Shown here one piece after another: positions 16,072-50,949 of a DNA stretch of 64,000 nucleotides (position 1 is its first letter; each line of letters begins with the position of its first letter). The position numbers and the translations under genes are program-made. Source of the DNA: Giardia muris (Eukaryota; Fornicata; Diplomonadida; Hexamitidae); NCBI GenBank assembly GCA_006247105.1, contig CM016926.1, forward strand, positions 1,054,001 to 1,118,000, written 5' to 3'. The notes beneath the pieces are model-generated. The model had not been told where the DNA came from. It ran no database searches and saw nothing but the letters and a program-made list of their open reading frames with translations.

Positions 16072-19071
16072 TTACGCTGGAAATCCATAACCTTGAAGGA
16101 GCTCGAAGAGTTCAGTTCGTTGACGCTTCGTCCCTCTACCTTTTTGGGCGTAATGAACCGCAGAATAACCATGCCGGTCTGTAAGAAGGTATTCCTGCTT
16201 GACAAGAAGAGAAGCGACGTATGTCGCGCCGTTGTAGCATGCAATCATCAACGCGGAGATGCCGGAGCCGGAATGGTCTGGTGCTCGGAAGAATCGACCT
16301 GGGTCGACCTTACGAGAGGTGACGCTTTTCGGCTTCCCAGCCTTCGGAGACTCGTGCCGTGGATAGGCTTGTAAGCCGCCTTCATATGGGGCGATGAGCT
16401 CAACGATTGGGAGGTGTGCTGCACGAACCGCAAGCATGAGGGCCGTGTAGTGCGTATGATTCTTAAGTCCCGCCTCCTGCTGGAGTAGCATAATTGCGCA
16501 ATGGAGATGGCCCTCCATTGCCGCATACATCAGGGCGGTATACCCTAGGTTATCTTGAAGGGTGGCCTCAAAGGGAAGAAGAAGCTCCATGGCTCCTGGT
16601 TGATTATTGATAGCAGCGTACATCAAGGCTGTCTTCCCAGTACTATCCTGGGCGCAGCCCTCTGTTGGGATGAGCATCCAGACCGTCACGATGTCTCCTG
16701 CAGATGCGGCGCACATCAGGTTTGTACGAAATTCCTTATTGCGTGTTTCCCGGTCCACATACGAGACCAGCTGTCCCTCAACCCCTTTGAGAAGGTCTGC
16801 TATCTCCAGGTGTCCGGCTTCCAGCGCATAGTACATCGCAGTCCGTCCAGACGAACTCTTCAAGCCGGCCTCGTACTTTATCAGGCGCGTCACGGTTTCC
16901 TTATGTCCTTTCCGAGCCGCCAGCATCAGGGCAGTCATCCCATCGTTGCTCCCCACCTTGGAGTAGAGTTCTATCATCTCGTCTGTAATAGAGGCATAAT
17001 CCCCAGAAAGGATGGCGTCGTGCAATGGTGTCGTCTTCATGGACACGCCTGAGGAAAGAACCTGAAGGTTCGACTCCGGGACCTCCAAAAGAGCCGCAGC
17101 CCGTCGTAAGTCTCCATTCGGAGAGAGCTCCAAACAAAGCTTCGCATTACGAAATGCCTCATGTAGCTCTAAAGAGACTGCAAGGCGTGAGGCTCCAAGA
17201 TATCCGGCACTATGGACAAGCTCGTACAAGGCTCCTTCGGTCTCAGCGACTCGGTCGGTCTTGTACTCTAAAATCTTCATAAGTTGCATGTTCTCGGAGA
17301 AGGCCACATCCTGTTCCTCCAATGCCTCCTCAAGCCTACGACACGTCGCCTCTGTCACGTGGCGCTGGTCGAGAAGCCTACGAGATAAGAGAACACAGTT
17401 GACTTTCTGCTGTAAGTATCGCCGTTTCAATGTCTGGCACGTCTTACATGTACTAGACTGTTCGCTCGCTTGTATTCTAGACGCAATCTCTTTAAGGAGA
17501 GCGGCCTGGTCTTCCGGAAAGATCCCCGTCACGGGTTCCATCTCTATTCCAGTTAGATCCTCCTCTGTGAACGGTACATCAATGGACAAGTTGAGGTCAG
17601 TGTCTCCGTGGGATGTGCCCGCCGTCATCCGCCCAGATGCACTCCGGATCCGTTTGACAGCACGCTTCATTGCACGTTGAAAGGCCGAATTGTCCAGAAG
17701 TGCCGAATGGTCGTCACAAAGAGTCATACCTTCATCTCCACTATCCGATACCTCCGACCCGGACTCACCACCTAAATTAGTCATAGGAATCGCTTCAGTT
17801 TGAACCTCCGCATCAAGAACCTCTGTCGCTTGAATAGCTGACTGCAGCTCAAGAAGAGCACCCTGAAGTTCTATAAAACCAGGTAGAAACGCTTGCGCGG
17901 TGTCCGTGGAATTCAGGACGAGGTTCTGAAGGAACATCAGCTTCGCGACCGCCGCATCAAGCGCCTCTTCAGGAAGCGATGGAGTATCTCGTTTCACCTC
18001 TCTCTCCGCCTTGAGTCGGATTTGCTCGCCATAAAATGCGTTCAGCTCCTTCAGTCGTGCATCTAAGGAGTCACGTTCCTGACCCTTTGCTTCCAGTTCG
18101 TCAGATAAACGTTGGCACTCGACCTTCATTGTTTCCTGACGTGTGATGAGTTCATCTAGTTCTTTGCGTTGTGCGACAAGTTTTGGATCAGGAGAGGGTT
18201 CTGACTCTTGAAGCTTGCTAACTACAAGAGCATCAGCACCACTAACGACACGAGTTCTAGCAAACTCTTCATTTGCATTAGCAATACGCGCGGCAGCTCG
18301 GGCAACGGCCGCAGAGGCAACGCGGGAGGTATGTATTCTTGGGCCATTATTACTGAAAGAAGCTCTCAAGCTCACGTTGGCACGCATGCTGATGTCTCCG
18401 GGTGTAGGTCGTAACGCCTCGCCTAGGGTATGTTGTGCTATGGGTGTCACGAATGAGGGGGACGTGAGGCTGGCCTGTAATGAAGAGCACCCGGTGATAT
18501 TGACGCTTGGGTCCCCACTATTGACTTGATATCGCGCTAGAATCTCCTCATAGTTTGTGTACCCGCACTCGGCCGCAAGAAGCCGGCAGGCGTTGATCTC
18601 CTCGGTCGTGTACATCGCAGAGGTCACAAAGAGCTCCGCGATGTCATCATTCCCAAGGTAGATGGCGTGTGCAAGCGCAGTCAACCCAGCATTATCTCGC
18701 TCGACACCATAATATTCTAGAAGCATTGGAAGGACCTGTGCTGACCCATTCTCAACCGCAACCATCAGAGCGGTCTCCCCTGCTTCAGAGACAACGGCGC
18801 GTTCCGCATCATACTTAACGAGCTCCTCGCAGACCTCCGGATCGCCTAGAATGGCTCCAAGCATGAGGGCGGAAAGCCCGTCGCGGCTGACAATCCCCGC
18901 CTCATGTGGAGCAAGGAAGGCGACGGTGTCAAGTCGTTGATAGACGACGGCCGTCATTAGGGCCGTCTCTCCTTCATCGTTGAGCGTCCCCGCACACTTG
19001 GGCACGAGCTCCTGCAAGGTCTCCAGGTTCCCAGCAGCTGCCGCCTGGAACCAGCGCTGGGCGTCGTCCAT
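16072..19071 (-). CDS. Ankyrin / coiled-coil / ankyrin protein, 999 aa
   Basis: The N-terminal 180 residues hold about five ankyrin repeats (TALMTAVVYQRLDTVAFLA and others). Residues about 280-390 form a charged coiled coil (repeated E, K, Q; QRKELDELITRQETMKVECQ), followed by an acidic linker and a second helical region near 540-620. A second set of about eight ankyrin repeats runs from about 680 to the end (TALMLAARKGHKETVTRLI). No kinase or RING is seen. This resembles Giardia 21.1-type coiled-coil scaffolds, which often sit on cytoskeletal structures; location is inferred. The ATG at 19071 is 20 bp from the divergent seven-domain pseudokinase start, suggesting shared control. Confidence 0.88.
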   Translation of the reverse strand: MDDAQRWFQAAAAGNLETLQELVPKCAGTLNDEGETALMTAVVYQRLDTVAFLAPHEAGIVSRDGLSALMLGAILGDPEVCEELVKYDAERAVVSEAGETALMVAVENGSAQVLPMLLEYYGVERDNAGLTALAHAIYLGNDDIAELFVTSAMYTTEEINACRLLAAECGYTNYEEILARYQVNSGDPSVNITGCSSLQASLTSPSFVTPIAQHTLGEALRPTPGDISMRANVSLRASFSNNGPRIHTSRVASAAVARAAARIANANEEFARTRVVSGADALVVSKLQESEPSPDPKLVAQRKELDELITRQETMKVECQRLSDELEAKGQERDSLDARLKELNAFYGEQIRLKAEREVKRDTPSLPEEALDAAVAKLMFLQNLVLNSTDTAQAFLPGFIELQGALLELQSAIQATEVLDAEVQTEAIPMTNLGGESGSEVSDSGDEGMTLCDDHSALLDNSAFQRAMKRAVKRIRSASGRMTAGTSHGDTDLNLSIDVPFTEEDLTGIEMEPVTGIFPEDQAALLKEIASRIQASEQSSTCKTCQTLKRRYLQQKVNCVLLSRRLLDQRHVTEATCRRLEEALEEQDVAFSENMQLMKILEYKTDRVAETEGALYELVHSAGYLGASRLAVSLELHEAFRNAKLCLELSPNGDLRRAAALLEVPESNLQVLSSGVSMKTTPLHDAILSGDYASITDEMIELYSKVGSNDGMTALMLAARKGHKETVTRLIKYEAGLKSSSGRTAMYYALEAGHLEIADLLKGVEGQLVSYVDRETRNKEFRTNLMCAASAGDIVTVWMLIPTEGCAQDSTGKTALMYAAINNQPGAMELLLPFEATLQDNLGYTALMYAAMEGHLHCAIMLLQQEAGLKNHTHYTALMLAVRAAHLPIVELIAPYEGGLQAYPRHESPKAGKPKSVTSRKVDPGRFFRAPDHSGSGISALMIACYNGATYVASLLVKQEYLLTDRHGYSAVHYAQKGRGTKRQRTELFELLQGYGFPA

Positions 19072-19091
19072 GATGAGGGATTTTGTAGAAA
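19072..19091. promoter_or_regulatory. 20-bp divergent intergenic promoter region
   Basis: Separates the start codons of the ankyrin/coiled-coil gene (minus) and the multi-pseudokinase gene (plus). It contains GATTTTGTAGAAA, giving AT-rich leaders to both. Probably a bidirectional initiator. Confidence 0.5.
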
Positions 19092-22000
19092 ATGGCTCGT
19101 TTTACTGACCTCCCTGCGGCGACATTTGCGTCCCGCTTGCACCCGATCCGGATCCTTCATACAGGGGTCACCGGACGCGTCCTCCTGGCGACGGACAGGC
19201 AGACCGAGGCAGAGGTCGTCGTTAAGGAGTTCGCTTATGGACGTCTCGATAAGGTCACCCGGTCCATAGCGTCGAATGAGCTTACCTTCCTCCAGGGCAA
19301 CGGGTACCGGAGCACCCCGACCATCCTCTGCGCATTCCACGACCCCGAGGAGGAGAAGGGGTATGTGCTGATGGAATACCTATCTGGTGGGTCTCTTAAT
19401 CACCTCATCAAGTCGGCACGGACGGCGAGGGCTCGGGTCTCCGAGGAGGTCGTCTGGCGCGTCCTTTTGGGCTGCTTGGAGGCGTTGTTGGATATGCATA
19501 AGCCGCGAGAGGGTGAGGTTTGTGTCCATCGCTCGATCAAGCCCGATAACATCGTCTGTTCGGCGGAGTATGGTGGGTACCTCATTGACTTTGGCCTAGC
19601 TAAGCTCCAACCGCTTTCCGAGCCTCTCACCTCTCAATGTGGAAGTCCTGCGTACATGGCGCCGGAACTTCTTGAGCGGAAGGTGTATACAGACAAAGTT
19701 GACATCTGGGCGTTGGGGGCGTGCATCTACGAGGTCTGTACGTTCGTCCAATTGGCTTCTCACTTCACTACAGAATCAAAAGGCAAAGAGGCTAAACGTG
19801 AGGCCTCTAGACCAACCTATACTCAGGATCGGTTATGTGGTCTCAAGTTACAGCCCACCCTTGAGGGGGTGGACTCTCGGCCATATTCTCTGACTCTCCG
19901 GTATGTCCTCGGTGCGATGTTGCAGGTCGACCCACAACTTCGTAGCTCTGCCCTCGATATCTTCCACGTCCCCGCCGTGGCGGCGATTCGGCGCGCCATC
20001 CTGCACTCCGGCCCGGACGTTATCCAGTTTATCGTCAAATATTCGGCGTCGCTTTCCGAGCGGTACACAGTGATACGCCGGCTATATAAGAATAAGACTG
20101 GGACGCACGTCGTTGTCCGGGGCCAAGCTGACGGGGTCTTTTATGGGGCTCGGGAGATACGCGTGGAAAGCGTTGATGGTGATGAGTTGATGGCGCTTGT
20201 ACGGGAGTTCCAACTCCCTCGTCCAGAGTACCACTCGATTGCGGCAGCGGTTGATTGGCTCTACGATATCCAATCCGGACGGGCGTATGTCATCTACAAT
20301 AGTAAGCTATTGGCGTTCACGAAGAGTGAGGACGAGAAGCCAGGCCTTGCGAATCACATCTTCTTGGATGAGTACTTGAGGCTTCAAAGAGGGGTGAGAC
20401 AGCAAGTTCCAGAGCTAGTCATTTGGGAGGTCCTTCTTCAACTGCTCCAGCTCCTCTGTTGGCTTTCGGAGGAGTGTTCCATTGTCCTCCGTTACCTCTC
20501 CCTCGAGGGGATCCTCATCAACCCCTCCACCCTTAGTCTCCTTATTTTCGACTTTGGAATGGCAGTAAGCGGAGGGCGTGCAGCAGGACGTCTAGGGAGC
20601 GCGGAATGCATGGCTCCTGAGGTGGCTATGGCCAGGGAGGTCGTTCTTGGAGACCCTGTGGATATGGGAGAAGTACTTAGTAACGACTATTACACAGCAT
20701 CCTGTGACGTCTGGAGTTTGGGTTGTGTCATCTATCGAATGATGACCTTCTGTTCCTTCCATACCCGTTATTATAACCGTACCCGTCAACGGTATGGAAG
20801 CCTTCGTAACATCGCGTTTGATAACCAGCATGTCGCAGCCTTCAACCCTTATTCGAGCACACTTGAGGCTCTTGTTCGCATGATGCTTGTCAAGCGCCCG
20901 GAAGAACGCGCCTCTGCAACCCGCTTACTGAAGACGATCAATCTTAGCTGGGTGGCGGATAACATTTTCGGGTCTCCGGTCCAGATCGAGCAACGGCGCC
21001 TTTCGGCGGTCTATATCATGGAAAGTGTTCTTGTCGATACCGAGCTGTTCCAGGAGTACGTCATCGTCGATGGGGATGGCACTCAGTATATTTGTAAGGT
21101 TCTCCGAATCTCTTGTCGTGACTTCTACAATCAAGGTTTCAGCCCATATATCCGTGGGCAGGTCCGGATGGCTCGTCTATTGACCGCAGATGTCTTCGTC
21201 CGAGCAATAGATTTCTTCTATGATGATACCCTTGGAATATGTATCGTTTATGACTGCCGCCCGTCAGAATCTCTTGGGGCGATGTATCGCACTCGTATCG
21301 CAAGCAAGCAACCCTTCGTTGAGCAGGAAATCTGGTCCATCGCGGCTCAATGCTTAACTGCCCTGTCGGATGCACATTCCTTCAACTCGAATTACTTGAG
21401 CCTTGGTTGTATCTCCCTCGTCAACCTCTCTCCAGAAAGTATCTTTGTTGACCAGGATGGAACGGTTAGAGTGTATATCACTGGCTATGCTATGGAACAG
21501 AACGCCCCAGGACAAATCAGTGCAAAGTTTGGTGGGGCACTCCCCTACTCCTCACCTGAGAAGCTCGCCTTGGCCGGGTATCCCTCGCTTGGGATCGATG
21601 GATATACAGAGCTGAACGACATTTGGGCTGTCGGTTGCATTGTTTATCAGCTATGTACCTTTGGACAACAGATTTTCGACTATTATGCCGAGCACGTCGT
21701 AGAAATCCTTCAAGCACGTTCGTTAGCCGATCATCTCGCCTTCCTCATCGATTGGTCAGATGAGCTTGTTGATTTCTTAGGAGAACTTCTAACTGTCCAA
21801 CCGGCTCTTCGTCCTTCCGCAGACTCTCTTCTGCGAACTGAATATATCAAAACTGCTATTCTCCCATACGTTGGTCCCTTCCCTATCCCACTCGTCTCTC
21901 GAAGCTTCCGGAAGCAATACCTCGTTCTTGAGTGTTTCAATGCCGTAGTAGGTCTTTCCAAGTATCGTGTTGTCCGAATAACGGGAGTCCATGACAATGA

Positions 22001-25000
22001 TGAGACTGAACCACGACAATGCTATATGGCACGGGAATATCGTTTGAATAAGCTTTTTCCACTCTCCGTCAGCGAGCTTTGTGAGGAGTTGACCGCCATG
22101 CGGGCATTGTCGATGAACTCGTATGTTGAACGTCCATATGATAGCTTTGTTGATGGGTCTCTCATCTACGTGGTGACGGAATATGCCCATGATGAGACGC
22201 TTCGTGGACTTCTTGATGCTCATACGGACGCGGGAATCTATGTTCCTGAGCGTGTCGTTTGGGCAGTTGCATCAAGAACTCTTTATGGGCTAGCTGAATT
22301 CCAACGTCAAGGGTATATCTATGGAGCCCTCATCCCGCAGAATATCCTCCTCACTAGTGGTCCAGTTTATCATACGGGACCTACCTCAACAGAACCTGAT
22401 AACACTGTCATCTGTGGGGCTCAAGAGTCAATCTCAGAACCAGACTTCTCACTTTATCATAATGGTAATAAGACAGCCGGGCAAACCATGTCATCCCTTG
22501 TCCGGGCCGATCTCTACACACTTCTGAGTGACTTTTCGCTGGTTTGCCGCTTAGGAGAACAGCTATCCAGGAACGTTGCACCGCAATACGACGGCTATCT
22601 CGCGCCCGAGGTCTTGGCGACACGGATCGCTGGGGCGATGCAGTTTTCTCCCTCTTCGGATACGTGGGCGTTGGGAGCAGTACTTTTCGAAGTCTGTTTT
22701 GGACTTCCTTTCAACGAATATCTTCTTCAGAACGAAGCAGTTGCGGCGTCATTAGCGACGGGTCAACCACTCCGAGTTCCAAGCTCTGTTGGACTCATGA
22801 CTCCAAGCTGTTATTCGAGTGAGCTTGTAGAACTATTGCAAACCATATTGGTCGTTGATCATGCTCGAAGGCCGACTCCACAAGAGGTTCTTCGGAAGTA
22901 TTCCACACGTTTGGACGTTTTCGATGCTCCCTGCATACCGAATTTCTTGTTTGAACCGGGGCTTCCATGTCGTAGCTTTGGCGCCTTATTTTCGGTCATT
23001 GAGACGGTATCCGAAGATTCACAACGTGGGGTGAAGGTTATTAAGGCAAGAACTCGAAAGGGGCCTCAAAACACGGCTCAAAAGACGCTGCAATCAATGA
23101 CCGGGATGAGTGCTAGTTCCTTGGCAAATCTTAGCCGTTTGGCAACGATGGGTTCGACAGCATTTATGTCAACAAAGCAATCAGCGGCGGAGCATCGTCC
23201 GGTCTTACCTCCCAAGTTGCTCTGTACATGCTACGAGGTTAGGATTACAGGGATCAATAGAAGTCTGATTCAACACCTTTTGTTGGTTAGTCTCGCATTG
23301 AATGCCTATATGGCGGGGACCATCGTCCAATTCTATGATTGTTTTGATGATCCAGAAGTTGGATGTTTCTACCTCGTTGTCGAATGTTGTGATGAGAAGA
23401 ATGTTGGAGTTCTATTGCAAACATTGTGTCAAAAGCAAATCGGACTTTCCTTGGATAAGTTCATCACCATTTGCAAGCAACTCTGTGATGGAATAGAACA
23501 GATCGCGTTAAACCCCGTCCAAATCACTCTCTTTCAACGAAATACTACCACCTCATTGAGTTCCACACGCATCACATTGACTCCACGTGAGGAACGTTAC
23601 TCGCCACACCCATTGGATGGTGCGTCTGATCGAGCTATGACGCCAGCGGTCATGCTTTCAGGAGAACTATGTCCAAAGCCCAAGAGGATTGTCGTTTCGC
23701 TATCCCTTTGTCATGGTGCCATCGTTCCCGAAAACATCCTCCTTTCAAGTTCAGGTATAGCAAAGCTTGGGGTCACCGCCGGACTGCTCCCTACTGGTTC
23801 TCCCATCTCCCCAGTCCTTTCCTCTACTTTAGGGAATGGACACCGCTTCGGAACCGTCTCTCTTGGGCTTGATGCATATTCGCTTGGGCTTTGCCTTTAC
23901 AAGCTTTATACCCATCGGTCCTATGTCCAGAGTGGAAGACCCTTCTCGACGCAGCTTTCTAGTGATATTCCAAACTATTTAAAAGGGGTTCTCAATGACA
24001 AACAGCATTCTAACATTGTTCTCTTCCTTCAGAATCTATTATTAACCGAGATCGAGTCCATACAGGCCTTCCATAACGTCCGAAGGATCTTGGAACCGGA
24101 TTTGATGGACCTTCCAACGGAAAAGCCGGATCCGAACTGTTCCTTCATTCAGAACTCGGTAGGGATCACTCTCTCGGAACGAGACTTGAACGCTTCAATT
24201 CTTCATCGTCCTGGCTTGATCTCTCTCAATGTGACGGTCCAACATCAATCCACGCCCGATCCGGACCGTAGTCTGTCGCTCCCAATCGTTAGTCCTCCCA
24301 CTCACCCCGTCATCTCTCAGAAGGGTGTGAGTGTCTCACCAGCTCCTAAGCCTTTGCTTCAAATCCTGTCACCCATCGATGATAAGCCTAACGAAAGCCC
24401 CGAGACTCCAAGACCGAATACTCGATCCGAAACCACAACCCCGATCAATCAAACCGACCAGGGAATGATAAGCACCGTCTTACAGGAGGTCAAAAAGTAC
24501 TTCCGTACGTCTACCCTCAAAAGTAGTTACTTATTCTTGCAGGGAGATGACTCTAGTATGATCTCATCGAGTCAGCAAAAGCTTGTCCGGCCACTCAACG
24601 CATCCATCGCCGCGAAGCAAGTCTTCATTTGCAACTACATTGACATTCTGAACATTCAAAGCAGTCAGTACCGCACCCGTATTCTAAAGGCCCTTCAGGT
24701 ACAGCAGAAGCTTGACCACAAGAATATTCAGCAGGTCATTGACGTCTTTTTCGACAAGGCGGAGCAGAAGTTATGCGTGATCCTCGAGTATGTCACGGAG
24801 TACACCGTCCGTGACGTCCTACATATATACCTAGAGGAGGGCCGGCGTGTAGAGGAATACGTCCTTTGGCGGGTCGCGTACCAGCTCTTGGACGTCCTCA
24901 CCTACATGCACACCTTCTCCGAGAGCGCAGAACCACATCCTTGCGCACACTTAGCTCTTACTCCCGAGTGCATTCATTTTACGGCGACGGATGGAGCACA

Positions 25001-26327
25001 GCTCGATTTCCGTTCCCTTAAGCTTGGAGGTTTTACTCACTTGCGCTTTGTTCGTGAGCCGGTATCGGACATCTGCAACATCGATGCATATTCGTCTCCA
25101 GCGGCTCTTCATGTCCGACATGGTTTGGCTTCTTCATATGATCCGTTTGCTGCGGACTGCTGGGCCGCTGGGTGCATCCTTTATGAGATCGCATGCCTCA
25201 AAAGCTTCTATGGCGTGCATTATGACCCGCGTTGGGATTCTTTCAATAACCTCCCTAATCTTGAAGTGGAGACGGGTCCAGAAGGGCGTGGCTATAGCGC
25301 AGAGTTTTCCGAGCTTCTCTCTGTCATCTTCAATGGGGAGGCGCGAGCCAGGGCGCTCTTAGCGTTCATCTCGGGGTCCGAGGTTATTCAAGTGATGACT
25401 CACTTCATCTCGAAGCTACCAAACCGCAAGCTGGTGGATGATTACGAGACCCTGTCGGTGATTGGGAACACCCCGATCGCTCGAGTCCTGAAGGTGCGGA
25501 ACCTCCTCACTGGGCAAATATTCATGTGTAAGGAGGTGAGCTTGGCACTGGCTGACCAGTACGTCGTCAGCCTGGTCGAGACGGAGATAACGATGATGCG
25601 AACTTTGTGTCATGAGTCTGTAGTCCCATTAGTGGATCACTTTTACGACGCAGAATGTGTCACAGCATACATAGTTACCGAGTACTTCACCCATGGAGAT
25701 GTTGGCTCATTACTCAACCGTTATGCAGTGCGAAACGAGCCGATCCCGGAGGACATCATCTGGGGAATTGCATATGAAGCACTTCGGGCCCTTGAATATA
25801 TTCACTCTCCAGATAAGGCCGAGTTTGAGGGCAAGAAGGTCGCGCATCGGAAGATTCAGCCCTCTAGCCTCTTACTCTCTCGTGACGGACATGTCAGATT
25901 GTTCGATTTCGGACTCAGTAAGGTCATCGGCGGTTCTGCAATCTTCGTCAGCGCGGGGACGTTAGGGTACATGGCGCCCGAGGTCCTTCAACTTCAGGGT
26001 ACCGTCTGGGGCCCCGAGACGGCAGGCTATGATGAACTTTGCGATATCTGGTCATTGGGTGCTGTCCTTTATGAGCTCTCCACCCTCAAGGCTCTACACA
26101 CCCGCTATCCGACACTCCTTGAGACTGGGGAGGGCTTCTCCGGAGTAACCTTGACCGATTTCGCACAAACAACTCCAAAGCCATACTCGGAAAGCCTTGG
26201 ACGTTTCATTTCGCTCCTCCTGGAGCCGGAGCCCCGAAAACGGCGTTCCGCGCGCGAGCTCCTCAACTACTCCGACATCCGAGCCCTCTGGGAGACCCCG
26301 GAGAGTAGCTCTGTTGATGGGGAGTGA
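19092..26327 (+). CDS. Seven tandem NEK-like pseudokinase domains, 2411 aa
   Basis: One frame encodes seven successive kinase-like domains, at about residues 14-300, 318-620, 640-905, 925-1265, 1285-1660, 1790-2095 and 2105-2400. Each keeps landmarks of the C-lobe, such as a 'W-x-L/V-G-C/A-x-x-Y' segment or an APE-like motif (MAPELL, MAPEVA, SSPEKL, LAPEVL, MAPEVL). The HRD catalytic triplet is altered in all seven: HRS (D to S148), LRY (Y468), LVN (N778), YGA (A1079), HGA (A1543), HLA (A1955), HRK (K2254). DFG survives in domains 1 (D166), 2 (D487) and 7 (D2272), is DFS in domain 4 (D1147), and is lost elsewhere. Domain 7 also keeps a VAIK-like Lys (FMCKE). Residues about 1660-1780 are a Pro/Ser-rich linker. 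It is best read as a scaffold of dead NEK folds. Confidence 0.92.
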   Translation: MARFTDLPAATFASRLHPIRILHTGVTGRVLLATDRQTEAEVVVKEFAYGRLDKVTRSIASNELTFLQGNGYRSTPTILCAFHDPEEEKGYVLMEYLSGGSLNHLIKSARTARARVSEEVVWRVLLGCLEALLDMHKPREGEVCVHRSIKPDNIVCSAEYGGYLIDFGLAKLQPLSEPLTSQCGSPAYMAPELLERKVYTDKVDIWALGACIYEVCTFVQLASHFTTESKGKEAKREASRPTYTQDRLCGLKLQPTLEGVDSRPYSLTLRYVLGAMLQVDPQLRSSALDIFHVPAVAAIRRAILHSGPDVIQFIVKYSASLSERYTVIRRLYKNKTGTHVVVRGQADGVFYGAREIRVESVDGDELMALVREFQLPRPEYHSIAAAVDWLYDIQSGRAYVIYNSKLLAFTKSEDEKPGLANHIFLDEYLRLQRGVRQQVPELVIWEVLLQLLQLLCWLSEECSIVLRYLSLEGILINPSTLSLLIFDFGMAVSGGRAAGRLGSAECMAPEVAMAREVVLGDPVDMGEVLSNDYYTASCDVWSLGCVIYRMMTFCSFHTRYYNRTRQRYGSLRNIAFDNQHVAAFNPYSSTLEALVRMMLVKRPEERASATRLLKTINLSWVADNIFGSPVQIEQRRLSAVYIMESVLVDTELFQEYVIVDGDGTQYICKVLRISCRDFYNQGFSPYIRGQVRMARLLTADVFVRAIDFFYDDTLGICIVYDCRPSESLGAMYRTRIASKQPFVEQEIWSIAAQCLTALSDAHSFNSNYLSLGCISLVNLSPESIFVDQDGTVRVYITGYAMEQNAPGQISAKFGGALPYSSPEKLALAGYPSLGIDGYTELNDIWAVGCIVYQLCTFGQQIFDYYAEHVVEILQARSLADHLAFLIDWSDELVDFLGELLTVQPALRPSADSLLRTEYIKTAILPYVGPFPIPLVSRSFRKQYLVLECFNAVVGLSKYRVVRITGVHDNDETEPRQCYMAREYRLNKLFPLSVSELCEELTAMRALSMNSYVERPYDSFVDGSLIYVVTEYAHDETLRGLLDAHTDAGIYVPERVVWAVASRTLYGLAEFQRQGYIYGALIPQNILLTSGPVYHTGPTSTEPDNTVICGAQESISEPDFSLYHNGNKTAGQTMSSLVRADLYTLLSDFSLVCRLGEQLSRNVAPQYDGYLAPEVLATRIAGAMQFSPSSDTWALGAVLFEVCFGLPFNEYLLQNEAVAASLATGQPLRVPSSVGLMTPSCYSSELVELLQTILVVDHARRPTPQEVLRKYSTRLDVFDAPCIPNFLFEPGLPCRSFGALFSVIETVSEDSQRGVKVIKARTRKGPQNTAQKTLQSMTGMSASSLANLSRLATMGSTAFMSTKQSAAEHRPVLPPKLLCTCYEVRITGINRSLIQHLLLVSLALNAYMAGTIVQFYDCFDDPEVGCFYLVVECCDEKNVGVLLQTLCQKQIGLSLDKFITICKQLCDGIEQIALNPVQITLFQRNTTTSLSSTRITLTPREERYSPHPLDGASDRAMTPAVMLSGELCPKPKRIVVSLSLCHGAIVPENILLSSSGIAKLGVTAGLLPTGSPISPVLSSTLGNGHRFGTVSLGLDAYSLGLCLYKLYTHRSYVQSGRPFSTQLSSDIPNYLKGVLNDKQHSNIVLFLQNLLLTEIESIQAFHNVRRILEPDLMDLPTEKPDPNCSFIQNSVGITLSERDLNASILHRPGLISLNVTVQHQSTPDPDRSLSLPIVSPPTHPVISQKGVSVSPAPKPLLQILSPIDDKPNESPETPRPNTRSETTTPINQTDQGMISTVLQEVKKYFRTSTLKSSYLFLQGDDSSMISSSQQKLVRPLNASIAAKQVFICNYIDILNIQSSQYRTRILKALQVQQKLDHKNIQQVIDVFFDKAEQKLCVILEYVTEYTVRDVLHIYLEEGRRVEEYVLWRVAYQLLDVLTYMHTFSESAEPHPCAHLALTPECIHFTATDGAQLDFRSLKLGGFTHLRFVREPVSDICNIDAYSSPAALHVRHGLASSYDPFAADCWAAGCILYEIACLKSFYGVHYDPRWDSFNNLPNLEVETGPEGRGYSAEFSELLSVIFNGEARARALLAFISGSEVIQVMTHFISKLPNRKLVDDYETLSVIGNTPIARVLKVRNLLTGQIFMCKEVSLALADQYVVSLVETEITMMRTLCHESVVPLVDHFYDAECVTAYIVTEYFTHGDVGSLLNRYAVRNEPIPEDIIWGIAYEALRALEYIHSPDKAEFEGKKVAHRKIQPSSLLLSRDGHVRLFDFGLSKVIGGSAIFVSAGTLGYMAPEVLQLQGTVWGPETAGYDELCDIWSLGAVLYELSTLKALHTRYPTLLETGEGFSGVTLTDFAQTTPKPYSESLGRFISLLLEPEPRKRRSARELLNYSDIRALWETPESSSVDGE

Positions 26328-26836: not shown

Positions 26837-29389
26837 ATGCTATCACACCGGTTGGCGGCCCCAGACGACTCCTGCTTCGAGACCGAGGGCCCCTACTTCG
26901 CCCATGACGTCCCCGCAGGCGACGTCCTGGTCCTCGACATTGGAACCTGTAATCTCCGCGTCGGCTTCCGGTCTGAGCCCGCCCCCCGTCTGACTCTCAG
27001 AACGGCCGTCAGTAAGTCACGCACCCGTGATAATAGGTATCGAATGGGTCGCGAGCTCCTCGATGCCGACTTCACTCGTGCAACGCATCGCACACCCTTC
27101 CAAGACAACATTCTGCTACACTTCGAGCTCCTTCAAAGTCTTCTTTCCTACGCGTTCGAGAGGGTCTTCGACTCTGCCGCGCGTATCACTCACGAGGTCT
27201 TCGTCGCGCTCCCGCTTTGTACCCCGCGGACCGCAATCCTCATCGTCGCTGACCTTCTTCTCAATCTCTATGGTGTCCCAGTCGTTCACTTTGCCCCCTC
27301 CGAACTGATCCTCCCGGAGGCTATAGACCTTTCGTCTATCACTCGGATACCTCCACGTACCATGGGAAAGCGTTCTCGTGGTGCCCCTGGCTTATTGGCC
27401 GCCCCTTCGCCTGGCGAGTCTCCTAGTCCATTAAGGACCGTCGAGATTCATCAGCAGGAAGAAGTAGGACCGTCTGTGTCATCCGACCTTTGCTTGGTGT
27501 TGCACGTCGGATATACTGCGACACTCTCCTATTGTCTTCTACGAAGGGAGGGAGTTCACGCGATAGCCGGATTCAGTTCTGTTAAGCACCTCCCACTCGG
27601 AGTCGGTTCGCTACAGACCTGGCTCCTCCGTCACCTATCACTCCGTTATCCTGCAGCCTCCCAGTTCTTCACGTATACGTTTGTCGAAAGCATCATCCGA
27701 GAGCTTACAATCTTAGTTCCAAAGGACCGATACGACGAGGTGTGTGAGGAGTGTATGACCCTTTTTGCCCAGTACGAACAATCTCCAACCTGCTTTAGAT
27801 ATCCAGAGTCTCGGTTCTCAGACGTCGCCACCAGTCTTGATCTTTTCAATTGTTATATGGACGCACTTGAACATCTGCACCAGAAGTTCCCAGACCTCTT
27901 TCCTCACAGCGCTGCGGGCTATGAGAATTGCGTTGTGACACCGTCTTTCCTTTCAGAGCTCTTTGAGGGCGCAAGGAAGAACGAGGAAATGCAAGAACGG
28001 CTAGCATTCATCGCCCGAGCGCGTAGGACAAGTCTTGAGCGATTGATCAATTACATCAGAGATTATGCGAAGGCGGAGGAGCTCTACACCTATCTGCAAG
28101 CGTCGGATGCTTTACGGGATACGGCCTGTTACGAAGACTACGAGTCCACCAAGCGGCAAGAACTCCTTCGTGCGCTCTCCCAAAGGGCCGTACGAGTGGT
28201 TCGAAGTGGACCTCGTGGAAGGCGTGCTAGTCAGTTGTCAGCACGCCCTCGGGAGCAAAGCGACACTGATGCCCCTTCAGGTAACGATATCGAGCCGGAT
28301 GGGGAACTCGAGCCTGAATTGAAGGCGGAACCCGGACCTTTTGAGCCTGGTCAAGGGACTGAACCGCCAGCAGAACAATGGGAGGATCGAACTGTCACCC
28401 CCCTAACGACCTCCACCCATCGGAACGTCTTGACTCCGGAGCAGGTGATCGAGCCTCTTGAGCGGATCTACTGGGCTCTCAAGGGGCAGGTCCAGTACGA
28501 TAAGTATTACTACGACTCCTTTTGCTCGCGGAAGAACATCGAGTCCCACGTCGATATGGTGATGCACGCCACGGGTTTTACGGCTCTCGAGAAGATTACT
28601 GGAGATCGAGTACTCAAGCAGCTGTATACGAACTACGCCGAGACATGCCATGGACTGGACATCGTCCAGTTGAAGCTGCATGGGCTTGGGGTCGATATGG
28701 CTCGGAAAGATGCCGAGTTCCGTGCCTCATGGCCATATGTCGCACACCCCGCAATTTCGTATTCCAAATTCCTCATCCCTGGGTGTGTAGCCCCTCAGGA
28801 GAGGACCTCTGTCGACGAGACGTTATTAGAGAACGGGGCCGACCTTAAGGGTGCTCGGATCGCATTGTTTCTGTTTAACGAACACCTCTTCGTCGGCCAG
28901 GTTCTAATGGAACCACAGATCGTCGGCCTTAACGCGACGGGGCCTGGAGGCCTCGTGGTTTCGGCTCTTCGGGCTATCCAGGAGAGTACTCTCACGGTTT
29001 CCGAGGCCTTTGGAACCTCGAATGTGTTAGGACGATGGTGTCCAACGAGTACTGGCTCGGGATCGACGGGCTTGGAGATACAATTTGATGCTGAACTCGT
29101 CCGTGATCGGTATCGTCCACAAGAGCCAGTACGACTCCTCTTGATCGGAGGAGGGGCAAGGCTACGAGGCCTAGCAGATACCCTCCAAGACCACCTGAAT
29201 GCGCATAGCGCCCACCCAATCCGTGTGGAGGTCTCTCCATGCAGTGATTGGGACCGACTGCGGGGCATTGCCTTGGCCCCCCAGTGTCATGCCACCTTTA
29301 CTCTAGAATCTCTTAAAACCGAGGCCGCATGGCTTCCAAACCAAGTCTCTTTCGAACGCACAGAAAAGAAGGGGAGGAAGAGCGCATGA
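26837..29389 (+). CDS. Actin-related protein, Arp5-like, 850 aa
   Basis: The N-terminus has the actin-fold phosphate loop (VLDIGTCNLRVGF) after about 30 residues. A second actin-like segment (LPLGVGSLQTWLLRHLSLRY) parallels the G-G-x-x-x-T-x-x-L-x-x-L-L-x-x-K-Y stretch typical of Arp5. Near residue 770, LLLIGGGARLRGLADTLQDH matches the actin C-terminal nucleotide-binding segment. A helical, charged insertion of about 300 residues (about 370-680) separates the two halves, as in Arp5, which carries large insertions. Arp5 works in the INO80 chromatin-remodelling complex, so a nuclear role is likely. Arp8 and another divergent Arp are alternatives. The ATG follows TCAAAAAACGGA, a good initiator. 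Confidence 0.75.
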   Translation: MLSHRLAAPDDSCFETEGPYFAHDVPAGDVLVLDIGTCNLRVGFRSEPAPRLTLRTAVSKSRTRDNRYRMGRELLDADFTRATHRTPFQDNILLHFELLQSLLSYAFERVFDSAARITHEVFVALPLCTPRTAILIVADLLLNLYGVPVVHFAPSELILPEAIDLSSITRIPPRTMGKRSRGAPGLLAAPSPGESPSPLRTVEIHQQEEVGPSVSSDLCLVLHVGYTATLSYCLLRREGVHAIAGFSSVKHLPLGVGSLQTWLLRHLSLRYPAASQFFTYTFVESIIRELTILVPKDRYDEVCEECMTLFAQYEQSPTCFRYPESRFSDVATSLDLFNCYMDALEHLHQKFPDLFPHSAAGYENCVVTPSFLSELFEGARKNEEMQERLAFIARARRTSLERLINYIRDYAKAEELYTYLQASDALRDTACYEDYESTKRQELLRALSQRAVRVVRSGPRGRRASQLSARPREQSDTDAPSGNDIEPDGELEPELKAEPGPFEPGQGTEPPAEQWEDRTVTPLTTSTHRNVLTPEQVIEPLERIYWALKGQVQYDKYYYDSFCSRKNIESHVDMVMHATGFTALEKITGDRVLKQLYTNYAETCHGLDIVQLKLHGLGVDMARKDAEFRASWPYVAHPAISYSKFLIPGCVAPQERTSVDETLLENGADLKGARIALFLFNEHLFVGQVLMEPQIVGLNATGPGGLVVSALRAIQESTLTVSEAFGTSNVLGRWCPTSTGSGSTGLEIQFDAELVRDRYRPQEPVRLLLIGGGARLRGLADTLQDHLNAHSAHPIRVEVSPCSDWDRLRGIALAPQCHATFTLESLKTEAAWLPNQVSFERTEKKGRKSA

Positions 29390-29821: not shown

Positions 29822-29932
29822 CCGCTTTTTCTCACTTTCGTTAGTGCCTTTCACACTTTTCCCGAGTCTTCATAAAGTTCGGATCCGTTCGAATTGTTTG
29901 GATTCCTCAGCTTAGTATCGAAGAAAAAAAGA

Positions 29933-32731
29933 ATGGCATTGAGGGTCAACCTCTTTGATCTTTCTATTGCTGCAAATAGGCTCGTCTACAAGTACAGTAT
30001 GGCGTATTCGAACGCCAAGGGCGAGGTGGCGACCCATGATCTCACTACGCGGGACTCGAAGTACGCGATTCGGGACGCCTGTAAGATCCTTTCCTCGAAG
30101 ACTGGGGGCGACGCCAGGACCATCTTCGACTCCCTCTTGTTCGACTACCCCCAGTCTGATGAGGTCCCGATCCTTGTTATCTACTCCTCTGTTGAGTATC
30201 AGGACGTCGAGGGCGAGTTCGAGGTGAAGCGCAAGACATACAAGTACTCCTTCAAGCGTGCTCGTCAGGACGGGGAAGTTCGTGGCTCTCTTGACCCGGA
30301 CAAGCCGGAGTACGTGCAGTTCTTGAAGGTCCTCTTCTCCTCTTACCTCGAAGCCCAGGATTCGGACTACATCCGCATCAAGCGCGGCTATTATACTCTT
30401 CCCGAGGGCGCTCTCACCACCGACGTCTCGGCCCAACACTTCATCACGACTCACACAGACCGCGACACCCGCATCAGCTACGCCTGGTTCCGCGGGTTCT
30501 CCTGCACTCCGGTCCTTAGCGCGGTCGGGAAGGGCGTGAACCGTCTTTGCCTGCAGATCATTCCGACAACCGCCCGCGTCCAGCGCCGCACCCTCCGCGA
30601 CCTCTACGATGAGGATCCCGACATGTTCCAGGGGAGGAGCGGCCCCAAGGGGGCCACCACCTGGGGGGTTAAGGGGTACTCGGTCATGACCCTCCACAAC
30701 GGGATCATGTACAAGGTTCGGAAGGTTGTCACTGGGGCCGGGGCGAGGGGCTTCACCGAGCGTGACGGAAAAGGCGGGACCAGCAAGGAGGTCACCTATG
30801 AGGCATACTTCCGGAACACGTATGGGAACAAGCTCACGGACCTGTATTCGTCTGTCTGCAACACGAAGGACATCTATGAAAAGATTAAGACGGACAAGTG
30901 CGCGGTCATCTGTGTCCGTAAGTCGAAGACCACCGGGAACATCCGCGAAGCGGTCCTCCCCATCTCCCTTTGTGTCATCGCTCAAGACTACGAACGCGTG
31001 AGTTTCAATATTAAGCAGGAGGTCATCGCAACGACCCAGTCCGCCCCGGAGCCACTCATCTCGATGGCGACCTCGCTGGCGAAGTCGCTCGGCTCGAAGA
31101 TCGGAAGCCTCGCGAAGAACTGGGACATCAAGCTAGCAGATGTTCCGATCGAGGTCCCCATGAAGTCGTGTCGCCACCCGCGCATCCACATCTCTCCGCG
31201 CGACCCGATGGTCCTCCAGAGCCCCGAGAAGATTCGCGAGCTTACAAAGGGCCTCAAAAGTTGTGCGGATCTTCCCCAGATCCGCGACGACAAGGGTGGG
31301 AAGAATGGGATATCGAATTGGATGGTCGTCGGGTTCAGCGAGGACCACGTCGCCGCCCTTTCAAAGAAGATGAGGGACAACTTCACCCAGATCTGCGGGC
31401 AGAGTTGCCCTGTCTCGGCGCCCTTTACCTACGTGATCGATAAGCGCGGAGTCAACTTCCGCAACCAGACCGACGTTGCCCGCAAGTACTGCATCGGCGT
31501 CCGTGACGCTCTCGAGAGGTGCGGCTTCGGCAAGACGCTTGAGGAATCTGCGAGGAAGACGAGCATCATATTCGCGATTATCCCGGGCCCGAAGGGGAAG
31601 ACGGAGGTGTATCCCATGCTCAAGCAACTCATGGTTGGGGCTCGGATTGTGACCCAATGCATCATCGAGCCGAAGCCGCAGCAGGGCGGCGGCCGCGGAG
31701 GAAGGCAGGGAGGAGGCGATCAGTTGCCGTGGAAGCCGGATGTGATCTACGGCCTTACGTGCCAGGCCTTCGCCAAGCTCGGAGGGCTTGTCTGGCGGCC
31801 CGAGGTCTCGAAGCTGTTCGGGGACACGATGCTTCTTTCTTATGACGTCTCCCGTGGCATGTTCACGAAGGAGGGTGATTCGGGCAAGCAGGACGAGCCG
31901 ACGTTGGATAGCCTGAAGGCTGTTGACAGGTACAGGGTCCGCCACCTTGACACCGACAGGAACGTTGTCGCTAGCTACCTGTCGACGTATTCCCCGAATC
32001 TCTTCAAATTCTACAGCCAATGGCGTGAGACTCCGAAGACGGCGTCGAACTACGCTGGTGAGATTGCGGGGGAGGACACCGTCAGAGAGACCTTCAAGTC
32101 ATCTCTTCAGATCTATCATAACAACAATAAGAAGCTTCCTTCGAGGATCGTATACCTACGCGACGGTGTCGGTGCGGGGCAGATCGATGCGGTCCGCAGG
32201 CAGGAGCTCGACGTCATGCTTCGTGGCATCCAGGCTGCCTACGGCAAGGCGAAGCAGCGCCTGGACTTCTGGTACATCGTGTGTGAGAAGAACAGCGACC
32301 TGCGCTGGGCGAAGTCCGGGTCGCAGGACGGGCACGCCCAGCCCGGGACGTACGTCCTCGACGGTCGCAGGATGTACATTGCGTCCCAGCATCTCACCAA
32401 CAAGAGGACCTCCGCAAAGCCTATGGAGTACCACGTCGTCTATAGGGGCGTGTTCGACGGTGAGAATATGGAGGAGAAGGATGTCTCCTTCACGGACGAG
32501 TCGACGCTCTCGGTCGAAGGCATCTCCGAGATGCGTATGTCCGACTTTGTCGAAATGTTAAACGCCCTAACGTACGGCTATCAGAATTGGCCGTCATCTA
32601 TCGCGGCCCCGGCGATTCTCCACTGCTCCCACCTCCTGAGCAAGTTCGCGCAGGAGGTTCTTGGAGGCGTTACTCAGGTTGGCCAGGACAAGTCGAACCC
32701 GAACTTCCAGTTCCTTCCGTTCTACATCTGA
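29933..32731 (+). CDS. Argonaute (PAZ-PIWI), 932 aa
   Basis: The Piwi domain is clear. The three catalytic positions of the DDH triad are present: D638 in SYDVSRG, D744 in LRDGVGAGQ, and H900 in HCSHLLSKF. KLGGL before the first Asp is typical of Piwi. The PAZ domain lies near residues 230-390. A Gly/Arg insert (GGGRGGRQGGG) sits near residues 584-595, just before Piwi. Giardia Argonaute is close to 950 aa and works with Dicer in small-RNA silencing of surface proteins, so slicer activity is expected. The frame opens with a TTG upstream, but the ATG at 29933 follows AAGAAAAAAAG and is the sensible start. Codon use is strongly biased (AAG, CTC, GTC), suggesting high expression. It converges on the AIR9-like gene, with 177 bp between stops. 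Confidence 0.93.
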   Translation: MALRVNLFDLSIAANRLVYKYSMAYSNAKGEVATHDLTTRDSKYAIRDACKILSSKTGGDARTIFDSLLFDYPQSDEVPILVIYSSVEYQDVEGEFEVKRKTYKYSFKRARQDGEVRGSLDPDKPEYVQFLKVLFSSYLEAQDSDYIRIKRGYYTLPEGALTTDVSAQHFITTHTDRDTRISYAWFRGFSCTPVLSAVGKGVNRLCLQIIPTTARVQRRTLRDLYDEDPDMFQGRSGPKGATTWGVKGYSVMTLHNGIMYKVRKVVTGAGARGFTERDGKGGTSKEVTYEAYFRNTYGNKLTDLYSSVCNTKDIYEKIKTDKCAVICVRKSKTTGNIREAVLPISLCVIAQDYERVSFNIKQEVIATTQSAPEPLISMATSLAKSLGSKIGSLAKNWDIKLADVPIEVPMKSCRHPRIHISPRDPMVLQSPEKIRELTKGLKSCADLPQIRDDKGGKNGISNWMVVGFSEDHVAALSKKMRDNFTQICGQSCPVSAPFTYVIDKRGVNFRNQTDVARKYCIGVRDALERCGFGKTLEESARKTSIIFAIIPGPKGKTEVYPMLKQLMVGARIVTQCIIEPKPQQGGGRGGRQGGGDQLPWKPDVIYGLTCQAFAKLGGLVWRPEVSKLFGDTMLLSYDVSRGMFTKEGDSGKQDEPTLDSLKAVDRYRVRHLDTDRNVVASYLSTYSPNLFKFYSQWRETPKTASNYAGEIAGEDTVRETFKSSLQIYHNNNKKLPSRIVYLRDGVGAGQIDAVRRQELDVMLRGIQAAYGKAKQRLDFWYIVCEKNSDLRWAKSGSQDGHAQPGTYVLDGRRMYIASQHLTNKRTSAKPMEYHVVYRGVFDGENMEEKDVSFTDESTLSVEGISEMRMSDFVEMLNALTYGYQNWPSSIAAPAILHCSHLLSKFAQEVLGGVTQVGQDKSNPNFQFLPFYI

Positions 32732-48673: not shown

Positions 48674-48897
48674 TCGGTTTTTCGTGGACTCCGGTTCAGC
48701 CCCTGGTCAACGGGTATCGAAAGGAAGGAAAGGTAGGAGTGGATACTCGACGACAAAGAACCGCTCAAGTTCACAAATAAAGGAACCACGTTTTAACAGT
48801 GTGTCATCTGGTGCTTCCTATGGTCCCGTCCAAATGGTATGAAGTTACAACTCTTCCTCATTGGCCGCTGAACTGAATGGAAGATGGTAGTAAGAAA
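48674..48897. promoter_or_regulatory. Divergent intergenic region between two pseudokinase genes
   Basis: About 200 bp separating the tail-anchored pseudokinase (minus) from the ankyrin-coiled coil-pseudokinase (plus). Short ORFs occur but none looks real. It presumably holds both promoters; no specific element is recognised beyond AT-rich leaders. Confidence 0.35.
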
Positions 48898-50949
48898 ATG
48901 TCCAGAAATGCCTTGACGAGTGCCGCTTGCAACTGCAATGTTTCCGACATCCGCGCAAACATTGCTCTGGCTGGGCAGGCCGATAAAGAAGGTTGGACTG
49001 CCTTGATGTGGGCCGTTGGCTGTAGTGATATGAATTGTACCTTGGAATTGATTGCCAAGGAAACACGTCTTACTGGAAAGAATGGGTGTACTGCCCTTAT
49101 GCGAGCAGCCGCACTGAATAATGTTGAAAAGGCCCGCCTTCTTCTTTGCGAGGTACAGATGCAAACTAACGATAGGATGTCCAAGATATGCTGTACAAAT
49201 ATTGATGCGTCAGCTGGTGCCACAGCCTTGATGCTCGCGGCTCGGAAAGGCCACTTTGAGATAGTTGAGCTTCTCCTCCCCTACGAGCAAGGACTAAAGG
49301 ATTCCGAAGGGCACACGGCTCAATGGTATGCGAACAACAGTTCAGGAGGAGGAGACTATACCCGTGTTCGTGAGCTTCTCAAGAATGAGGGGACAGAACG
49401 ACTTCCTCCACCGAATCCTGAAGTACCCAACCAGGAGCATATCACTGAATCTTCTGCCAAACCCGAGTATCAACTCACTTCCTCCGAGAATACATACGAG
49501 GAAACAGAGGAGAGCACTTCCCAATCGAATCAGGAGGGCTCCTCTCCCAAACAACAAATTGACAAGGCTACCGAAGAGTCCGATAGGCGCGATGAACTCC
49601 AGAAGGCTTCTGACCAGAAACAGGCCCTCATCGATGAGCTCACCATCGAGAAGACGACTCTTCAGGAGCAACTCGCATCATCCAAGAAGACATTAGAAGA
49701 GGCGGAGAAACTGCTTTCCCAACTGAATCAGGAAAACTCCTCTCTCAAACAACAACTCCAGAAGGCCAACGAAGAGGCCAAGAAGAATCATGAGCTGGAT
49801 GAAACTCTGAACAAGAGAGCACGGGAGGCCGAGAAGAGCCTTGCCGAGACGAGGTGGGAGATCACTTCTCTCAAAGCCCAGCTCTCTAAGACCACTGAGG
49901 ACCTCAAAAGAGCACTCGCAGACCAGAAGGCCCGGAACCTCGCCCTCGAGAAGGAGAACGCCCGACTGAGGACCGAGAGCCATGACATGAAAGACCTTCA
50001 GAGACGCCTCGAGGAGGTGGAGGAGGAGAAGAGGATCCTCCTCCAGAACATTGCTGCTATCGGGGGCAAGATCGTTCCCACTCCCGTACAGGAGAGCGAA
50101 TCCCGTATCTCAGCAGCTATCCAGGGAGATTCAGAGAGACGTCCGGCAGTAAAGGATGTCCTCAAGGAGGCGGAAAGAGAGGATGACACAACCCCAGATA
50201 CCAGGGCATTCCCCTCGCTCCCCGAAAGCATGAAACAACACTACTCTCTCAAGACTTCCTTCAAGGGGCGTCCGAACACCTTCAAGGCGGTCGATAGCAT
50301 GAACAAGCCCTGCATGATAGAGGTCGTACCACACCCCGAGGGCCCTTCTCTCCTGAACTCCCCGACTGAGCTGAAGGACCTCCGCCACCAGAACGTCCTG
50401 GAGTACTCCTGCGTCACAGACGACGGGAAGGGCCGTGTCTTCATTGTGACAGCCTGGCACCCTTCGACGTTACAGGACGCCATGGCTCGAAGGCTCGGGA
50501 ACGGGGAGATCAAGCAGTATCTTCGACAGCTCGCCTTGGGACTCGAATACCTCCACGGGAAGGGAATAGTCCTCCGATCCATCTGTCCGAAGAGCGTCCT
50601 CCTTTCGGATGACGGAGAATGCATCCTGGGAGGGCTTGACTGTGCATCCTTCATCTCTGACGCTCCCTGCAAGCCTGTGGGAGAGCCACTCCGCCGTCCG
50701 CCTGAGATGCAGCAGGGCAGGTCCTCCTACGGACCATCTGCGGACATCTGGGCCCTCGGACTTCTTGCCTACGAGCTGTGCACTGGAAAGCTCCCCTTCA
50801 CGACTGAGGAGCAGGTGGCACGGATGGACGCCCCACCTCCCGAGGAGAGGGACCAGGATCTCGTCACGCTTGTACTGAGGATGCTGGAGAAGAACCCGGA
50901 GAGGCGTCCGACGGCACAGGAGGTCGTGAGGACATTGCGTAGGAGGTGA
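48898..50949 (+). CDS. Ankyrin / coiled-coil / C-terminal pseudokinase, 683 aa
   Basis: The order is reversed relative to other NEK-ankyrins: about four ankyrin repeats first (TALMWAVGCSDMNCTLELI), then a coiled coil (about 195-390, repeated E, K, L, Q), then a kinase-like domain (about 440-680). HRD is replaced by LRS (VLRSICPKS) and DFG by GGLD, so it is inactive; WALGLLAYELC and a PPEM segment mark the C-lobe. The ATG at 48898, after GTAAGAAA, is preferred to the ATG at 48877. Toward the 3' end codon use shifts to more GC, so the pseudokinase part may be of different history. Stop TGA lies in GGTGAAT, a weak poly(A)-like signal. Confidence 0.8.
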   Translation: MSRNALTSAACNCNVSDIRANIALAGQADKEGWTALMWAVGCSDMNCTLELIAKETRLTGKNGCTALMRAAALNNVEKARLLLCEVQMQTNDRMSKICCTNIDASAGATALMLAARKGHFEIVELLLPYEQGLKDSEGHTAQWYANNSSGGGDYTRVRELLKNEGTERLPPPNPEVPNQEHITESSAKPEYQLTSSENTYEETEESTSQSNQEGSSPKQQIDKATEESDRRDELQKASDQKQALIDELTIEKTTLQEQLASSKKTLEEAEKLLSQLNQENSSLKQQLQKANEEAKKNHELDETLNKRAREAEKSLAETRWEITSLKAQLSKTTEDLKRALADQKARNLALEKENARLRTESHDMKDLQRRLEEVEEEKRILLQNIAAIGGKIVPTPVQESESRISAAIQGDSERRPAVKDVLKEAEREDDTTPDTRAFPSLPESMKQHYSLKTSFKGRPNTFKAVDSMNKPCMIEVVPHPEGPSLLNSPTELKDLRHQNVLEYSCVTDDGKGRVFIVTAWHPSTLQDAMARRLGNGEIKQYLRQLALGLEYLHGKGIVLRSICPKSVLLSDDGECILGGLDCASFISDAPCKPVGEPLRRPPEMQQGRSSYGPSADIWALGLLAYELCTGKLPFTTEEQVARMDAPPPEERDQDLVTLVLRMLEKNPERRPTAQEVVRTLRRR

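Follow-up and report, generated by a model that had tools for sequence, protein, structure and literature searches.

The window analysed here is a 64,000-nucleotide stretch of the Giardia muris genome (GenBank assembly GCA_006247105.1, contig CM016926.1, positions 1,054,001 to 1,118,000 of the forward strand). It contains a gene that encodes a chain of seven kinase-like domains (D1 to D7), none of which has an intact His-Arg-Asp (HRD) motif. The features of this locus are collected in Table 1. The 2411 codons of the gene run without an internal stop, for which the chance, computed at the gene's own base composition, is about 10^-45. Searching the protein against the whole genome (9.74 Mb, 52 contigs) revealed one full copy, 20 of 278 candidates being scored; the other 20 matches listed are single kinase domains with 27–39% identity.

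Table 1. Features of the seven-pseudokinase locus (window coordinates; Pfam, hhalign and PDB values are E-values).
Feature	Coordinates	Strand	Description
Seven-pseudokinase gene	19092-26327	+	ATG start, single open frame, 2411 residues, stop codon included
Gap shared with divergent ankyrin-repeat gene	19072-19091	.	20 bases, A/T-rich towards the ATG
D1	19131-20006	+	Residues 14-305; Pfam 6e-38; best PDB match NEK2, 1.3e-24
D2	20055-20966	+	Residues 322-625; Pfam 4e-16; hhalign 1.4e-38; HRD Asp replaced by Y468, DFG present
D3	21009-21881	+	Residues 640-930; Pfam 4e-17; HRD Asp replaced by N778, no DFG Asp
D4	21903-22916	+	Residues 938-1275; Pfam 9e-19 in two stretches; hhalign 1.3e-38; A1079, DFS
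D5	22959-24116	+	Residues 1290-1675; most degenerate, two long inserts; HRD Asp replaced by A1543
Linker D5-D6	24117-24503	+	Residues 1676-1804; S/T-P rich in G. muris
D6	24504-25391	+	Residues 1805-2100; Pfam 3.5e-15; A1955, GFT for DFG; best PDB match NEK7, 5e-11
D7	25425-26291	+	Residues 2112-2400; Pfam 6.5e-40; K2254, DFG present; full-length NEK2 match in PDB
AGTGAA	26323-26328	+	Overlaps the stop codon of the seven-pseudokinase gene

The seven-domain architecture is well supported. With the whole protein as a query and a maximum E-value of 1, the Pfam family Pkinase matched in seven stretches (E = 5e-150). When Pfam was rerun on the protein cut into pieces, six of the seven domains cleared the Pkinase cut-off of 31.7 bits, and D5 alone reached 21.7 bits (E = 1.5e-4). 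Comparison by hhalign of four-row domain profiles with 23 G. muris kinase domains gave a probability of 99.3–100% for all seven, the value for D5 being 99.3% (3e-20, columns 9–218 of 286), against at most 0.7% for seven reversed controls. Thus, the seven kinase-like domains in 2411 residues that a first-pass annotation of this DNA had described are real, and from their sequences D1–D4, D6 and D7 are predicted to adopt the kinase fold. Domain boundaries lie 7–16 residues apart within D1–D5 and between D6 and D7.

Ranked by PDB match, NEK kinases come first for D1, D4, D6 and D7 and second for D2 (behind GRK4) and D3 (behind RAD53). For D5 there was no PDB match below 0.001, and all six weak matches were kinases. 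NCBIfam matches were to generic kinases and fell under their cut-offs. No ankyrin family was detected in the protein by Pfam at E-values up to 1, so that its layout is not the NEK-with-ankyrin one of Giardia.

Protein searches, each scoring about 8000 candidates (one of them reporting the best 120 of 432), identified three full-length relatives, P0002, P0003 and P0004, of the G. muris protein (P0001). No orthologue beyond these was found in the searches, of which the one started from P0003 missed P0001 and P0002, so relatives at about 40% identity can escape. P0002 is 88% identical to P0001 and, at 2412 residues, one residue longer. P0003 (2582 residues) and P0004 (2563 residues) are both about 40% identical to it, with 40–41% in the full alignment and 36–42% by local BLASTP. 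This is near the average amino acid similarity of 44.7% over 3043 G. muris and G. intestinalis orthologues (PMC7641422), where 'similarity' may not mean identity. P0003 and P0004 share 80% identity; judged against the 78% identity of NEK kinase domains between WB and GS (PMC3218828), they probably represent G. intestinalis assemblages.

All three relatives contain the same seven domains in the same order, with six Pkinase stretches each at an E-value of 0.001 and no intact HRD motif. In the tree, each domain groups with its own orthologues with 99–100% support, and the seven-domain array therefore predates the split of the lineages. By domain, identity to P0003 varies from 32% (D5) to 50% (D3 and D7), and drops to 19% in the D5–D6 linker (19–21% to P0003 and P0004), where residues 1691–1795 gave no Pfam match. 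Of the 27 SP/TP motifs in the G. muris protein, 7 fall in the linker, with 1.4 expected, and the P0002 linker is also S/T-P-rich. The cluster is absent in P0003 and P0004 (1 motif versus 1.1 expected) and was not used as support; the linker is possibly a lineage-specific phosphorylation region.

Pseudokinases lack at least one of the residues K72, D166 and D184. The HRD aspartate (D166) is missing in 28 of 28 domain copies across the four orthologues; accordingly, none has the catalytic Asp of an active kinase, and in each of the four proteins every domain is a pseudokinase by D166 alone. The replacements annotated earlier for G. muris (S148, Y468, N778, A1079, A1543, A1955 and K2254) are all correct. 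The same replacement residue is found in all four proteins for D1 (S/S/S/S), D2 (Y/Y/Y/Y), D3 (N/N/N/N), D4 (A/A/A/A) and D6 (A/A/A/A); in D5 the column reads A/A/S/G and in D7 K/K/N/N. The Asp-Phe-Gly (DFG) motif is, as annotated, strictly kept in G. muris D1, D2 and D7, to which we add that D4 retains the Asp as DFS (D1147). All four orthologues have the DFG Asp in D1, D2, D4 and D7; in D6 only P0003 and P0004 have it. For the beta-3 Lys, D1 and D7 are the only domains in which all four orthologues retain it. D1 stands out by 17 of 19 kinase landmarks being present in all four orthologues, K72, E91, K168, N171 and DFG among them, the two missing ones being the first loop glycine and the HRD Asp (S148). 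The C-lobe landmarks E208, D220, W222, G225 and R280 are invariant (5/5) in D1–D4 and in D7.

Conservation of the nucleotide pocket was assessed by comparing 14 pocket landmark columns with the rest of the same domain over the four orthologue rows. Pocket columns are invariant at 14/14 positions in D1 (uncorrected P = 1.9e-7) and at 11/14 in D2 (P = 0.004). The corresponding numbers are 5/11 in D3, 7/14 in D4, 4/14 in D5, 5/14 in D6 and 6/14 in D7 (P = 0.22–0.66, with 0.66 for D7). Canonical residues occupy 48/56 pocket cells in D1, 30/56 in D7 and 26/56 in D2; D2 is thus conserved without being canonical, since 11/14 of its columns are invariant and fewer than half of its cells are canonical. 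Only in D1 is the ATP pocket both close to canonical and more conserved than its surrounding domain. Within one protein there is a contrast between D1, whose pocket is kept, and D3–D7, which show selection for the fold but no additional selection for the pocket. Of the three domains that the first-pass annotation had put forward for a nucleotide-binding assay, D1 is a strong predicted candidate and D2 a doubtful one. D7 was rejected as a special nucleotide binder, as its pocket is not specially conserved and its DFG motif is DFC in two relatives; all four orthologues retain its K72, E91 and DFG Asp, and D7 may still bind nucleotide.

How unusual is it that all seven domains lack the catalytic Asp? 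This Asp is kept in 32 of 50 other G. muris kinase stretches sampled and absent from 18, in a sample that leans canonical, counts one intact gene twice and includes five losses that are near-copies of one domain. Among 23 reference domains, mostly chosen for high kinase scores, 20 keep it. In Giardia NEKs as a whole, 71% (139/195) are without one of three key residues and are dead (Manning 2011, PMC3218828). Dead NEKs are the rule in Giardia. From these figures the background chance of all seven being dead is roughly 0.0008 to 0.09, and we regard seven-of-seven loss as unusual, not extraordinary. The strong point is not the death of each domain but the conservation of this loss in orthologues and the fact that the seven are kept together: one gene, present as a single copy, holds them in an unchanged order and with largely the same losses at about 40% identity. 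Since seven dead domains stay together across lineages, there is good evidence that the kinase folds are kept for something besides catalysis. This bears on the question of what makes Giardia, whose core kinome is minimal, retain NEKs of which about 70% are dead.

On balance, we favour the view that this NEK-like protein, encoded by one gene copy and conserved as a chain of seven pseudokinases, is a non-catalytic scaffold with a nucleotide-binding N-terminal domain. The kinase-shaped surfaces of D3–D7, perhaps above all their C-lobes, would dock partners at fixed sites on a single polypeptide; these partners are probably other NEKs or proteins of the cytoskeleton. The D1 pocket, judging by its residues, probably binds ATP or a similar nucleotide, and this binding may switch or stabilise the assembly. 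The sequences show how many domains there are, that every orthologous copy lacks the catalytic Asp, that the architecture is conserved and that the D1 pocket is selectively conserved; from this we infer the scaffold role, the nucleotide binding, the partners and the cellular place. The published setting is as follows. Many dead NEKs have been suggested to be scaffolds (Manning 2011, PMC3218828), and Giardia NEK pseudokinases found in the ventral disc and lateral crest have been proposed to add structure (PMC3243723). NEKs as a class localise to the plasma membrane, marginal plate and disc (PMC13322205), and NEK proteins rise early in encystation (PMC3877021); in the passages used, none of these last three reports identifies the seven-domain protein. 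A more specific picture is a single-chain, seven-unit pseudokinase 'rod' with kinase folds as building blocks, whose end module D1 would sense nucleotide and gate NEK assembly on the cytoskeleton; we offer it tentatively, as a doubtful extension.

The main rival to a scaffold is allosteric control of partner NEKs, in which the domains would form dimers with active NEKs and turn their activity on or off, as JAK JH2, HER3 or KSR do with their partners, and the chain would be less a passive scaffold than a regulator with many sites. Such modes are known for pseudokinases (PMC9633767), and since D1 and D7 are recognisably NEK-like, NEK–NEK dimers could form. However, the chain has no active kinase domain of its own and no known partner, and D1 and D2 are the only domains whose pocket is conserved beyond the level of the remaining domain; we regard this reading as possible rather than probable. 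Less likely, D1 would be a genuine kinase of low activity in spite of its HRS motif, and the other six domains would serve as targeting modules. The K72, E91, K168, N171 and DFG residues of D1 and its fully invariant pocket would fit this idea, but its catalytic Asp is a Ser in all four proteins. Loss of the HRD Asp normally costs several orders of magnitude of kinase activity. The strong differences in retention between domains and the very degenerate D5 might be taken as signs of a decaying multi-domain kinase gene. Against this, the 2411-codon frame is intact and differs by one residue in length from an 88% identical relative, the same architecture with mostly the same losses recurs at about 40% identity, and the divergence is near the genome-wide average. 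The first-pass annotation had recognised that an orthologue with intact HRD motifs would reveal decay; none of the three relatives has one, its claim withstands this check, and decay was rejected as highly improbable. An assembly or gene-model artefact that fused separate NEK genes has no point in its favour and is hardly conceivable, being refuted by three other full-length proteins, from other contigs, with the same seven-domain order.

Several observations weigh against the scaffold reading or fit it poorly. Tested alone, D5 stays under the Pfam cut-off in P0001, P0003 and P0004 (21.7, 16.9 and 18.5 bits). Structure modelling, by which the domain count was also to be judged, agreed with it in part: a D5 model supports a kinase fold, although its alignment included other kinase domains and is thus biased towards that fold, and a four-row model of the three domains D5–D7 was poor, with a predicted local distance difference test (pLDDT) score of 29.2, so that elsewhere the fold is predicted from sequence. 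The C-lobe landmarks, claimed earlier to persist, are incomplete in D6 (3/5 invariant) and D5 (2/4). Four orthologues amount to about two lineages and hence to few independent events, and the pocket P-values are uncorrected for seven tests. The canonical pocket cells of D7 outnumber those of D2, a misfit to a simple division in which D1 and D2 bind nucleotide and D7 does not. For this gene we found no data on binding partners, localisation or expression, and allosteric regulation of an active kinase would be an equally good use for a chain of dead domains.

Among known systems, the protein is closest to the Giardia NEK pseudokinases (PMC3218828), which are likewise NEK-derived, without catalytic residues, mostly conserved between strains and suggested to be scaffolds, but it differs by its seven kinase domains and by having no ankyrin match. 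The main text of Manning 2011 (PMC3218828) has no mention of 'tandem' or 'multiple kinase domains'. The disc proteins DAP24321, DAP17231 and DAP13981 are also dead NEKs with a proposed structural role; they are 288–1109 residues long, two have ankyrin repeats, and none is described as a tandem array in the accessible text (PMC3243723). Plant tandem kinase-pseudokinases such as WTK1 share tandem kinase folds, no other domain and pseudokinase parts, but have two domains, one usually putatively active, are mostly of receptor-like-kinase origin and act in plant immunity (PMC6170490). In place of their one putatively active and one pseudokinase domain, the Giardia protein has seven domains, all pseudokinases. 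JAK family members also carry FERM and SH2 parts. They resemble the Giardia protein in their tandem kinase-fold domains and regulation by a pseudokinase, and differ in having two domains, one of them active (PMC6170490, PMC9633767).

The number of domains is not without parallel. Contrary to the earlier statement that tandem kinases rarely exceed two or three domains, the sunflower kinome has 61 proteins with 2–6 PF07714 domains (PMC11646777), and P0048, a database protein of 2911 residues, has ten tandem tyrosine-kinase-like domains. It is likewise a long tandem kinase array with many HRD motifs lost (the Asp is kept in 4/10), but belongs to another kinase group (2258 bits for PF07714 versus 1152 bits for PF00069), and its alignment covers no more than 8% of the Giardia protein, with 25% identity; it is not an orthologue. 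By eye, its N-terminus is SH2-like. Counted with our own merging rule, kinase domains number seven in the four Giardia-type proteins among 169 retrieved, ten in P0048, five in P0047 and at most three in the rest. In the literature within reach, which excluded supplements and most subscription papers, we found neither a Giardia protein with several kinase domains, nor any array with three or more pseudokinase domains, nor a description of a long kinase-fold array turned structural repeat. What is new is the form of the array; Giardia NEK pseudokinases, some in the ventral disc, are known. Novelty is lowered because Giardia NEKs are mostly known pseudokinases, two-domain NEK-like proteins occur in the genome, and P0048 has ten domains. 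The earlier label of an undescribed system is therefore too strong for a protein that sits inside the known expansion of Giardia NEK pseudokinases.

In 40 genome stretches picked by kinase matches, together with the window, there are five frames with two kinase domains, and only the seven-domain protein has more. A gene elsewhere in the window (48877-50949, +) encodes ankyrin repeats, a coiled coil and a NEK-like domain with LRS for HRD that is nearly identical to the second domain of the two-domain frame L018. Its motif LRSICPKS recurs in L019, L029 and L030, likewise frames with two domains; four large contigs are involved. In these pairs HRD is intact in the first domain, which in L018 lacks the DFG Asp. 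A different two-domain kinase-like protein is L023 (C3:788500-794000), a frame of 829 residues whose kinase domains carry HRD and HND.

As to the origin of the array, a single clade of all seven domains is not rejected (P = 0.37), and the best tree places D1 among other G. muris kinase domains (split support 80/68, with long-branch warnings). The data thus neither reject nor show a common origin of all seven domains by internal duplication. Apart from themselves, D2 and D3 both match D7 of this protein best in the genome; D6 scores slightly higher against two separate frames than against D7, and for D1 and D7 the best matches are other kinase genes. D4 has no non-self genome match at 1e-7, and D5 has one weak match only (E = 0.003).

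Upstream, 20 bases separate the ATG from a divergent ankyrin-repeat gene (16072-19071, -); this gap is the likely start region of the seven-domain gene and may act as its promoter. At the other end, the AGTGAA at the stop codon fits AGTRAA, the poly(A) signal of Giardia. The adjoining gene (26837-29389, +) encodes an 850-residue protein with a partial actin match, and beyond it lies a Piwi gene (29894-32731, +) with a PAZ match under its cut-off, an Argonaute candidate.
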